Source of the DNA: Caballeronia concitans | GTDB taxonomy: Bacteria; Pseudomonadota; Gammaproteobacteria; Burkholderiales; Burkholderiaceae | Length of the DNA: 64,000 bases | Assembly (NCBI RefSeq): GCF_001544615.1 | Contig: NZ_FCNV02000010.1 | Coordinates: forward strand, 1 to 64,000 | Direction of reading: 5' to 3' | In this document: positions 46,843 to 49,456 of the stretch, piece by piece | How positions within the stretch are numbered: the stretch's first letter is position 1 | Layout: each line of letters starts with the position of its first letter | Made by a program: the position numbers and the translations under genes | Notes under the pieces: model-generated | Seen by the model: the letters and a program-made list of their open reading frames with translations, nothing else | Database searches by the model: none | What the model was told of the DNA's origin: nothing

Positions 46843-46865
46843 CACAAATTCAAAGGATGAGACAG

Positions 46866-47933
46866 ATGAAGATTGCAGTGCTCCCCGGCGACGGGATCGG
46901 TCCGGAAATCACGGCCGAAGCGGTCAAGGTGCTGAACGCGCTCGACGAGAAGTTCGAACTGGAAGAAGCGCCCGTCGGCGGCGCGGGATACGAGGCGAAA
47001 GGCCATCCGCTGCCCGATTCGACGCTCGCGCTCGCGAAGGAAGCCGACGCCATTCTTTTCGGCGCGGTCGGCGACTGGAAGTACGACTCGCTCGAACGCG
47101 CGCTGCGTCCGGAGCAGGCCATTCTCGGCCTCCGGAAGCATCTGCAACTGTTTGCGAACTTCCGCCCGGCGATCTGCTATCCGCAACTGACGGCGGCGTC
47201 GTCGCTCAAGGCCGAGATCGTGTCGGGGCTCGACATCCTGATCGTGCGCGAGCTGAACGGCGACATCTATTTCGGCCAGCCGCGCGGCGTGCGTCAGGCG
47301 CCGGACGGCCCGTTCGAAGGCGCGCGCGAAGGCTTCGACACGATGCGTTATTCGGAGCCGGAAGTGCGCCGTATCGCGCATGTGGCGTTCGCCGCAGCTC
47401 AGAAGCGCCAGAAGAAGCTGACGAGCGTGGACAAGGCGAACGTGCTTGAAACGTCGCAGTTGTGGCGCGACACGATGATCGACGTCGCAAAGGAATATCC
47501 GGATGTCGAACTGTCGCACATGTACGTCGACAACGCTGCGATGCAGCTCGTCAAGGCGCCGAAGGCGTTCGACGTGGTCGTGACCGGCAACATGTTCGGC
47601 GACATTCTGTCGGATGAAGCCGCCATGCTGACGGGCTCCATCGGCATGCTGCCGTCGGCGTCGCTCGACAAGAACAACAAGGGCCTGTACGAGCCGTCGC
47701 ACGGTTCCGCGCCGGATATCGCGGGCAAGGGCGTGGCGAATCCGCTTGCGACCATCCTGTCGGCGGCGATGATGCTGCGCTATTCGCTCGGCAAGGCGGA
47801 GCAGGCGGATCGCATCGAGAACGCGGTGAAGAAGGTGCTGGAGCAGGGCTACCGCACCGGCGATATCGCGACTGCGGACGGCAAGACCGTCGGCACGAAG
47901 CAAATGGGCGACGCCGTGCTGGCCGCGCTGTAA
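46866..47933 (+). CDS. leuB: 3-isopropylmalate dehydrogenase
   Basis: A 355-residue Mg/NAD-dependent decarboxylating dehydrogenase making 4-methyl-2-oxopentanoate, the last leucine precursor. [15 protein letters not shown] start (ATG 46866 preferred to 46857 for spacing from AAAGGA), [22 protein letters not shown] with active-site Arg/Tyr and [23 protein letters not shown], the metal-binding Asp block (about 240-262). Last gene of the leuCDB operon. Confidence 0.97.
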
Positions 47934-47953
47934 GACGCTTCACGCGATCGGAT

Positions 47954-47984
47954 CGGCCGTTTCCGCGCAAAGCTGGAACGGCCG
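47954..47984 (+). terminator. Hairpin after leuB
   Basis: CGGCCGTTTCC (47954-47964) pairs with GGAACGGCCG (47975-47984) with one bulged T. A stable stem 20 bp past the leuB stop, but without a T run, so a weak or Rho-aided terminator or a 3'-end stabiliser. Confidence 0.4.
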
Positions 47985-48062
47985 AATCGGTAGCAATGAC
48001 GCATCATTGGCGTCGTTTCGTCGGCCGCGCCCGGACTTGCCGACGAAACGCCGCAACTCGTG

Positions 48063-48068
48063 TATATT
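48063..48068 (+). promoter_or_regulatory. Putative -10 box of the asd leader transcript
   Basis: TATATT with a -35-like TTGCCG at 48037-48042 (20-base spacer, longer than ideal; TGTATA at 48061-48066 gives 18). The predicted start falls at about 48075-48077, i.e. at or just before the leader ATG. Confidence 0.45.
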
Positions 48069-48076
48069 GTTTGGTC

Positions 48077-48253
48077 ATGGCGAAGAACTCTCAATTCTCT
48101 ACGGACTCCATCGGTCGCGGCATCCACGCTCGCGTGACGGGTCTCGCCTTCGTCCAGCGCATCGACGGCATCGCCACCATTGGCGCAACCGCCATTGGCA
48201 CGTCGAAAACGCGCACGACGAAAATCTCCATTAAAGCGATCACGATTCGCTGA
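48077..48253 (+). CDS. Candidate Thr/Ile-rich leader peptide upstream of asd
   Basis: A 58-codon ORF starting at ATG 48077 and ending TGA 48251-48253. It holds 10 Ile and 9 Thr, and the last 30 residues alone hold 8 Ile, 7 Thr and 3 Lys (IATIGATAIGTSKTRTTKIS and onward), with several ATT and AAA codons uncommon in neighbouring genes. No Shine-Dalgarno is visible. A -10-like TATATT ends eight bases upstream, so a leaderless start is possible. A 9-bp hairpin follows before asd. Composition and place suggest an amino-acid-sensing leader like thrL, read as Thr/Ile (Lys) starvation control of Asd. It could also be a small protein or chance. Confidence 0.5.
   Translation: MAKNSQFSTDSIGRGIHARVTGLAFVQRIDGIATIGATAIGTSKTRTTKISIKAITIR
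48181..48194 (+). promoter_or_regulatory. Small stem inside the leader ORF
   Basis: TGGCG (48181-48185) pairs with CGCCA (48190-48194) around CAAC, within a stretch of several GCCA/TGGC elements (48172-48200). Alternative pairings among these could give competing structures, as attenuators require. Suggestive only. Confidence 0.3.
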
Positions 48254-48274
48254 TCGTCCCTCGTGTCCGAGCGT

Positions 48275-48313
48275 CTTCCCCGCGCGGCCACGCCGGGCAA
48301 GGATGCGGGGAAG
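48275..48313 (+). promoter_or_regulatory. GC-rich hairpin between the leader ORF and asd
   Basis: CTTCCCCGC (48275-48283) pairs with GCGGGGAAG (48305-48313), a 9-bp stem whose loop also contains GC-rich bases able to pair. It lies 21 bases after the leader stop and 21 before the asd ATG. There is no T run, so intrinsic termination is unlikely. It could act through Rho or by hindering initiation at the asd AAGG site (48325-48328). Confidence 0.5.
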
Positions 48314-48334
48314 AGTCCACAGATAAGGTTAGTC

Positions 48335-49456
48335 ATGAACGTAGGTCTCGTTGGTTGGCGCGGTATGGTCGGCAGCGTCCTGATGCAGCGCATGCAGCAG
48401 GAAGGCGATTTCGACCTGATCGAACCGGTGTTTTTCAGCACCAGCAATGCGGGCGGCAACGCGCCGTCGTTCGCTAAAAACGAGACGAAGCTCAAAGACG
48501 CAACGAGCATCGACGACCTGAAAAAGTGCGACGCCATCATCACCTGCCAGGGCGGCGACTACACGAACGACGTGTATCCGAAGCTGCGCGCGGCGGGCTG
48601 GAAGGGCTACTGGATCGACGCGGCATCGGCGCTGCGCATGAAGGACGATGCGGTCATCATCCTCGATCCCGTCAACCTCGACGTCATCAAGGATTCGCTC
48701 GTCAAGGGCGGGCGCGACTTCGTCGGCGGCAACTGCACGGTCAGCCTGATGCTGATGGCGCTCGGCGGCCTGTTCCGCGAAAACCTCGTCGACTGGATGA
48801 CGGCCATGACGTACCAGGCTGCATCGGGCGCGGGCGCGCAGAACATGCGCGAACTGCTGTCGCAGATGGGCGCGCTCAACGCGTCGGTGGCGGACGATCT
48901 GGCGAATCCGTCGTCGGCCATTCTGGATATCGACCGCAAGGTGCTCGCCACCATGAACAGCGACGCCATGCCGACCGATCATTTCGGCGTGCCGCTCGCG
49001 GGCTCCCTCATTCCGTGGATCGACAAGGATCTCGGCAACGGCATGTCGAAGGAAGAGTGGAAGGGCGGCGCGGAAACCAACAAGATTCTCGGCAAGCCCG
49101 CGATGGGCGAGCCGGGCTCGATTCCCGTCGATGGCCTGTGCGTGCGGATCGGCGCGATGCGCTGCCACTCGCAGGCGTTGACCATCAAGCTGAACAAGGA
49201 CGTGCCGCTCGACGAAATCAACGGCATGCTGGCTTCGGCGAACGACTGGGTGAAGGTCGTGCCGAACGAGCGCGAAGCGTCGATGCGCGATCTGTCGCCG
49301 GCGGTGGTCACGGGCACGCTGACGGTGCCGGTCGGCCGTCTGCGCAAGCTCGCGATGGGCGGCGAGTATCTGTCGGCGTTCACGGTCGGCGACCAGCTTC
49401 TGTGGGGCGCGGCCGAACCGCTGCGCCGCATGCTTCGCATTCTGCTGGACAAGTAA
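48335..49456 (+). CDS. asd: Aspartate-semialdehyde dehydrogenase
   Basis: A 373-residue enzyme reducing L-4-aspartyl phosphate to aspartate semialdehyde with NADPH, the branch-point precursor of Lys/diaminopimelate, Met, Thr and Ile. [18 protein letters not shown] (residues 3-20) binds NADP, the nucleophile Cys is in [11 protein letters not shown] (about residues 130-140), and the catalytic His in [18 protein letters not shown] 48335 has AAGG 6 bases upstream. Long-type (Gram-negative) Asd. The Thr/Ile-rich leader ORF and hairpin upstream suggest amino-acid-responsive control. Confidence 0.97.

Follow-up and report, generated by a model that had tools for sequence, protein, structure and literature searches.

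In the thrL class and the other leader-peptide attenuators of Enterobacteria (thr, ilv, and leu operons), a short open reading frame (ORF) rich in codons for the pathway product precedes the biosynthetic genes, and the position of the ribosome on it selects the RNA fold. Joint control of asd by several end products has also long been described in enterobacteria; the encoded aspartate-semialdehyde dehydrogenase (Asd) is the common step to Lys, Thr, Ile, Met, and cell-wall diaminopimelate. The trpL leader transcript of S. meliloti begins at the leader ATG (PMC7298713), and the leuL, trpL, ilvL, and thrL leader peptides of Streptomyces lividans are leaderless, several without a U run (PMC8079986). 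The LEU element before leuA in Actinobacteria joins a leader peptide to a conserved RNA able to form a pseudoknot; it lacks a terminator, and its control codons pair with the Shine-Dalgarno box (PMC1262725). Candidate cys leader peptides of Mycobacterium have control codons near the stop, no terminator, no conserved hairpins reported, and a suggested involvement of Rho (PMC1262725). Leaderless transcripts have been described in B. cenocepacia (PMC4603805) and C. metallidurans (PMC7563307), and 82 short 5′UTRs were reported elsewhere (PMC5688073); the word asd is absent from the main texts of these three papers, as distinct from their tables and supplements. The cited descriptions follow the sections of those papers considered here. 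Among the literature matches listed, in a search covering main texts and mainly open-access journals, no description of an asd leader peptide was recognised.

The window analysed here is a 64,000-nucleotide stretch of the 6.17-Mb genome of Caballeronia concitans. An earlier sequence-only reading had proposed that a Thr/Ile-rich ORF and a hairpin before asd form a possible leader-peptide attenuator for the aspartate family. The conserved leader and its codons support that proposal overall, with Lys joining Thr and Ile, and we put the probability that this locus holds a conserved candidate attenuator of asd, sensing Thr, Ile, and Lys through ribosome position, at roughly 0.8. The 58-residue ORF translates as had been claimed, with eight Ile and seven Thr among its last 30 residues, and the hairpin, here termed P3, is present and is kept in relatives (Table 1). 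To these observations are added the Lys codons, a helix (P2) interleaved with P3, and the position of the stop codon inside a further hairpin (P1). The ORF upstream of the leader is presumed to be leuB, by its family. Elsewhere in this genome, hom starts ∼27 nt behind another same-strand frame, aminotransferase-like by eye (G000:C26 209114-209650, L325); a leader directly before hom was considered and rejected, as the upstream frame leaves no room for it. Eight matches in a plasmid collection had no feature annotated under the match, and the two records inspected were almost unannotated overall.

Table 1. Features of the asd leader locus, given as positions in the window.
Feature	Position	Strand	Basis
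leuB (presumed), gene upstream of leader	46857..47933	+	ORF list; tblastn to relatives
Promoter-like motif TCGTGTATATT	48058..48068	+	-10-like hexamer TATATT at 48063-48068; no conserved -35; conserved in 116 distinct upstream regions
Leader ORF, 58 codons, ATG to TGA, predicted leaderless	48077..48253	+	ORF list; relatives; box-to-ATG spacing
P0, small hairpin within leader ORF	48116..48134 (48116-48120 / 48130-48134)	+	Pairs in 63/63 leaders with the HG..AR motif
Control codons -14 to -2, Thr/Ile/Lys	48209..48247	+	Codon counts in leaders
P1, hairpin around leader stop codon	48236..48257 (48236-48242 / 48251-48257)	+	Pairing in 96.3% of cells; several lineages with both-sided changes
P2, helix	48258..48296 (48258-48269 / 48285-48296)	+	Pairing and both-sided changes; two positions nearly always mismatched
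P3, hairpin, CTTCCCCGC / GCGGGGAAG	48275..48313 (48275-48283 / 48305-48313)	+	Alignments of relatives
Shine-Dalgarno-like AAGG of asd (putative)	48325..48328	+	Sequence; inference
asd, aspartate-semialdehyde dehydrogenase	48335..49456	+	ORF; match in 196/200 family genomes

To relate the leader to other genomes, the 58-residue peptide was searched against 200 genomes of the family. The leader was recovered before asd in 18 other genomes of the same genus (E up to 0.015), whereas outside the genus the peptide search gave matches at chance level only (E 0.02 or worse), a consequence of its fast divergence. The same layout was seen in other genera when the DNA upstream of asd was read in 60 further genomes. 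From 58 of these sequences a covariance model (R1) was made for the stretch between the stop and asd, and R1 matched 126 of the 200 family genomes. After weak matches in G142, G015, and G092 were discounted, 123 credible genomes were left, spanning nine of the 25 genera, including Caballeronia, Paraburkholderia, Burkholderia, Trinickia, and Cupriavidus, with one match per genome except for two in G158. The match ends at the start of asd in 77 of the 123 as read from the sequence, and its coordinates agree with those of asd by eye in 40 more, asd coordinates being unlisted for six g24 genomes. Among named asd loci, 54 of 80 matched R1, every one ending at the asd ATG.

A leader pattern (a -10-like box, an ATG within 21 nt, and an ORF end 60–110 nt before asd) was applied to 136 upstream regions and gave a leader ORF in 127, 112 of them distinct, with lengths of 37–62 aa and stop codons 81–93 nt before asd. 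The nine regions without a leader were L017, which has an in-frame stop; four reduced g8 genomes without a parsable leader (L067, L068, L101, and the very degraded L102); L126, where the leader tail is retained and the start was not found; and L157, L171, and L174, which have no R1 element. Broken or strongly degraded leaders were observed in some symbiont or reduced genomes (L017, L067, L068, L101, L102, L126). L156, a truncated region, was left out of the survey, and a separate leader pattern gave no leader in order genomes L085–L091. The sequence-only reading had made its case depend on conservation of the ORF and its Thr/Ile content; in nine genera both the layout and the codon content are kept, and Lys joins the other two residues.

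Thr, Ile, and Lys account for 71% of the last 16 residues in the 112 distinct leaders; the share is 13% for six neighbouring proteins and 10% when the same DNA is read in its two other frames. At codons -14 to -2 they make up 1,191 of 1,456 codons (82%), and 1,191 of the 1,200 ANN codons there encode one of the three (496 Thr, 416 Ile, and 279 Lys; the others are 6 Ser, 2 Asn, and 1 Met), compared with 308/485 (63%) in six window genes; in nine genus representatives, the figures are 98/98 ANN codons and 98/117 codons overall. The constraint therefore appears to act on amino acids and not merely on nucleotides, since a shared first A (ACN, ATH, AAR) would also yield Asn, Met, AGY Ser, and AGR Arg, which are hardly seen. 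Thr, Ile, and Lys are all made through Asd and Asn is not; Met, another product via Asd, is nearly absent among the leader control codons. The residue at a given position often differs between leaders, mostly by swaps among these three, and pN/pS values of 0.71–0.84 (225 pairs) indicate that exact residues are weakly constrained, which matches the expectation for putative control codons. Codon usage in the leader tails (window positions 48209-48250 and other leaders) also differs from that of the six neighbouring genes: 92% of tail Lys codons are AAA versus 10% (AAG reaching 90% in those genes), and 53% of tail Ile codons are ATT versus 15%.

The -10-like box ends 8 nt before the leader ATG, as the sequence-only reading had noted, and its guess that the leader could be leaderless gained support from the spacing in relatives, which is 6 nt in 76 leaders, 8 nt in 32, 7 nt in 13, 9 nt in five, and 19 nt once. 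Because the box ends 6–9 nt before the ATG in 126 of 127 leaders, the mRNA is predicted to be leaderless, probably starting at the ATG itself. No conserved -35 was found in 116 distinct upstream regions, and a simple sigma-70 scan of the + strand of 47900-48400 returned no promoter pair, the box standing without a recognisable -35. The motif TCGTGTANAYT followed after 4 to 10 nt by ATG occurs once in the whole genome and not at all as a reversed-pattern control; the invariance of the promoter motif among leaders is partly imposed by the pattern used to find them.

Three conserved helices were recognised around and behind the leader stop. P1 is of the type ACGATCA/TGATCGT and P2 of the type CCGTCGTGCCCG/CGGTCACGCCGG; P2 and P3 interleave in a pseudoknot-like order that fits an H-type pseudoknot with short loops, and the two may coexist or compete. 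Conservation of P2, P3, and the joining bases far exceeds that of the peptide. In an initial alignment of 58 sequences (A1), both sides had changed in one of 26 pairs, a count reached by 481 of 500 shuffles, and an RNAalifold consensus contained P3 alone, with zero covariation; the weak signal reflects helices that are nearly invariant. A wider set (A2) comprised 82 distinct rows once L102 and L103 (from G142, not upstream of asd) had been excluded from the pair counts; the model that aligned this set contained the P1 and P3 pairs and none of the P2 pairs. In A2, P2 changes from C-G to U-A in all 14 distinct Cupriavidus rows and takes U-A and A-U in reduced g8 genomes, and P1 changes from C-G to U-A in L082 and L101 and from A-U to U-A in six distinct g24 rows. 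Covariation in P3, which the sequence-only reading had offered as a check, was absent from A1 and appeared in A2 as both-sided changes in L067, L068, and L101 only. P2 cells were paired in 786 of 820 cases without the two mismatch positions and in 793 of 984 with them.

Several further features of the RNA were seen. Some stretches of P2 or P3 use different bases to pair in L067, L068, and L101, and g24 genomes L099 and L100 carry an additional G in one P2 strand and an additional C in the other. Within the leader ORF, the second pair of P0 is A-U in 44 and G-C in 19 of the 63 leaders with the HG..AR motif, whereas part of the other pairing follows from the amino-acid anchor itself. The motif is missing from another 23 leaders of these genera, which were unscored. 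P0 is a covarying hairpin and a possible pause hairpin that would keep polymerase and ribosome in step. The folding energy of the whole leader was unremarkable (z = -0.12).

Folding was computed for 104 sequences with the RNA free from different points, as it would be behind a ribosome whose footprint was set at about 13 nt beyond the A site. In transcripts ending before the P3 3′ strand, the mean probability of P2 was 0.53 with the RNA free from stop-28, 0.59 from stop-14, and 0.77 from the stop, and fell to 0.12 from stop+9 and 0.01 from stop+13; on these figures, P2 would be blocked while a ribosome sits at the stop and free to form during a stall upstream. With more of the leader free (stop-40, stop-60), P2 fell to 0.31–0.32 even before P3 was complete. 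In full-length RNA, with pseudoknots left out of the model, P3 beats P2, which came out ahead in no more than 3 of 58 sequences; since P3 wins in the finished RNA wherever the ribosome stands, P2 must act during transcription or jointly with P3 as a pseudoknot. By computation, then, the position of the ribosome would decide whether P2 forms.

Sequence comparison supports the leader, its Thr/Ile/Lys codons, the box-to-ATG spacing, and helices P1 to P3 as conserved elements, from which the following mechanism is proposed. The transcript would begin with the leader ATG or no more than about 3 nt from it, and a ribosome would initiate on the leaderless mRNA; the conserved ORF, with its pathway-product codons, is of the kind that marks attenuators, and its translation is predicted. 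With charged tRNA for Thr, Ile, and Lys in ample supply, the ribosome would reach the stop and cover the P2 5′ strand, so that P3 forms alone and asd is lowered; with any of the three scarce, it would stall in the Thr/Ile/Lys codons, P2 would form in the nascent RNA, and asd would be expressed. P2 may act as a competitor of P3, or the two may form a pseudoknot together. For the effector step, Rho-aided termination is the preferred guess, given the missing U run, a composition rich in C and poor in G (44% C, 23% G) between the stop and the end of the P3 5′ strand, and an accessibility of the asd ribosome site that is constant across the modelled states. P2/P3 with Rho as the mechanism is accordingly a tentative proposal, put at less than even odds. 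An intrinsic terminator was rejected: no terminator-like site was found in this region of the window, and the missing T run behind P3, already remarked on in the sequence-only reading, is conserved, with a mean of 2.9 and a maximum of 6 T in the next 10 nt (104 related sequences).

The same leader-peptide sensor might instead have a translational output, with the stalled ribosome altering the fold around the asd start or the access of ribosomes to it. A missing U run suits this reading, as does the end of P3, 21 nt before the asd ATG and so beside the 30S footprint as it extends upstream of a start codon, and the LEU element is a terminator-free precedent in the sections considered (PMC1262725). 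Accessibility of the asd Shine-Dalgarno site is nevertheless 0.54–0.56 in all four modelled states, on which grounds its sequestration as the switch was rejected. Pairing of the control codons with the ribosome site, as in the LEU element, was likewise rejected, since the energy of that duplex is -7.96 versus -8.99 for shuffled control codons, and more than 0.3 of the site is so paired in just 17 of 104 full-length folds. A translational output is on this evidence rather unlikely.

It is improbable that the true regulator is the P2/P3 pseudoknot, binding a ligand or protein, with the ORF secondary: although P2, P3, and the joining bases are conserved far beyond the peptide and are ordered as in an H-type pseudoknot with short loops, the Thr/Ile/Lys content is kept at the amino-acid level and recurs with a different RNA in Comamonadaceae-like genomes and in family f14 (below). 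A known RNA family was rejected, as Rfam had no match for the window leader (E up to 10) or for nine related loci (gathering cut-off), which also tells against the pseudoknot as the true regulator. Very improbable, and rejected, is a small protein with its own function, asd control being incidental. A MAKISQIS..HGKTARA-type N-terminal motif is recognisable in many Burkholderia sensu lato leaders, yet g24 and Comamonadaceae-like leaders have N-termini that look unrelated to it, Cupriavidus leaders are similar at the first residues alone, lengths vary over the range given above, pN/pS is about 0.8, and the HG..AR stretch encodes the paired hairpin P0. As for a chance ORF within a conserved promoter region, short ORFs are common, and reverse-strand controls reach seven Thr/Ile/Lys in 12 residues in 2 of 97 order regions; retention of the frame in 127 of 136 regions and the 98/98 ANN codons in nine genera refute this reading, whose probability is negligible. 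By these comparisons, the leader ORF before asd is more than chance.

Leaders of other types were also seen before asd. Of the inspected named loci without R1, 8 of 25, all Comamonadaceae-like and including Curvibacter and Hylemonella, carry a different Thr/Ile/Lys tail (e.g., ..ITIKTTTIKG and stop). Behind this tail lies a conserved GGTTCGTC..GACGAGCC helix, for which CCGGC/GCCGG is the competing pairing. A sequence model of this second type built from 11 sequences (R2) matched 83 of 100 genomes (one per genus, family of G329; E up to 0.01), seven of the 83 with E above 1e-5, and the best 30 of the 83 were read, contributing 30 of the 36 loci surveyed. In 27 of these 36 the ATG lies 6–10 nt behind a -10-like box under a permissive pattern, so that this type is also predicted to be leaderless; of the remainder, four are continuous with leuB, three were unparsed, one was incomplete, and one was parsed from a wrong start. 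In 36 distinct sequences, a set overlapping the 36 loci without being identical to them, 289 of 290 ANN codons at -12 to -2 encode Thr, Ile, or Lys. The helix choice flips with the start of the free RNA, the first helix having a probability of 0.99 from stop+9, 0.44 from stop+13, and 0.01 from stop+16 (24 sequences).

Where the leader frame is continuous with leuB (L307, L313, L315, and L318 among the 36; also L176, L187, and L228), the Thr and Lys codons are therefore LeuB's own last codons. Some Comamonadaceae-like leuB frames were observed to end in ..ATITKTTIKG, ..AAITKTKG, or alike, directly before the same second-type RNA switch. The LeuB C-terminus there looks, from its sequence, as if it served as a leader peptide. 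A third Thr/Ile/Lys leader form was found in all three genomes of family f14 (L201/L322, L279/L323, L324), with a downstream RNA that looks different by eye; in L201, the leader ATG has a Shine-Dalgarno-like AGGAAG upstream of it. No tail with at least seven Thr/Ile/Lys was found in the inspected named Pandoraea (L171, L174) and Zoogloea loci. In a survey of the order (97 regions, out of 127 order genomes with an asd match), at least nine Thr/Ile/Lys in 12 residues occurred in three regions versus no reverse-strand controls, and at least seven in five versus two.

Taken together, these loci may represent an undescribed leaderless attenuator class, widespread in Burkholderiales, in which Thr, Ile, and Lys supply would be integrated at Asd by a pseudoknot-like switch with no intrinsic terminator, in at least two RNA designs, and with LeuB C-terminal codons as the sensor in some Comamonadaceae-like genomes; we consider this composite picture just short of an even bet. 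If it is true, translation of the last leuB codons reports aspartate-family supply to asd. Such leaders would give joint control of asd a concrete mechanism in a large bacterial order, with one peptide reading three amino acids, and would offer, for a proteobacterial order, an attenuator that is predicted to be leaderless and has no intrinsic terminator. The two RNA designs, the leuB-fused variant, and the broken symbiont copies form a natural experiment on switch evolution, and the asd leader is a likely lever in amino-acid production strains, e.g., of Cupriavidus.

Compared with the known systems, the asd leader resembles the thrL class in being a short ORF rich in pathway end-product codons before a biosynthetic gene, with a computed fold that depends on ribosome position; it differs in its target, in the added Lys codons, in its predicted leaderless start, and in having neither a U-run terminator nor an Rfam match. 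Its predicted start at the ATG would match that of the leaderless leaders of S. meliloti and Streptomyces, and it lacks a U run as do several of the latter, whereas these belong to another class and another phylum, respectively, and have other targets, none before asd in the sections of the papers considered. As in the LEU element, a peptide is combined with a conserved RNA, here one that may form a pseudoknot, and no terminator, for a different gene and different amino acids, and as in the Mycobacterium cys leaders, the control codons lie near the stop and there is no terminator, although the asd leader has three conserved helices (within the sections considered, as above). Because leaderless leaders without a U run in Streptomyces and a pseudoknot without a terminator in Actinobacteria have been described, leader-peptide attenuation of this kind is already known; the target asd, the three-amino-acid sensor, the RNA, and the lineage appear to be new.
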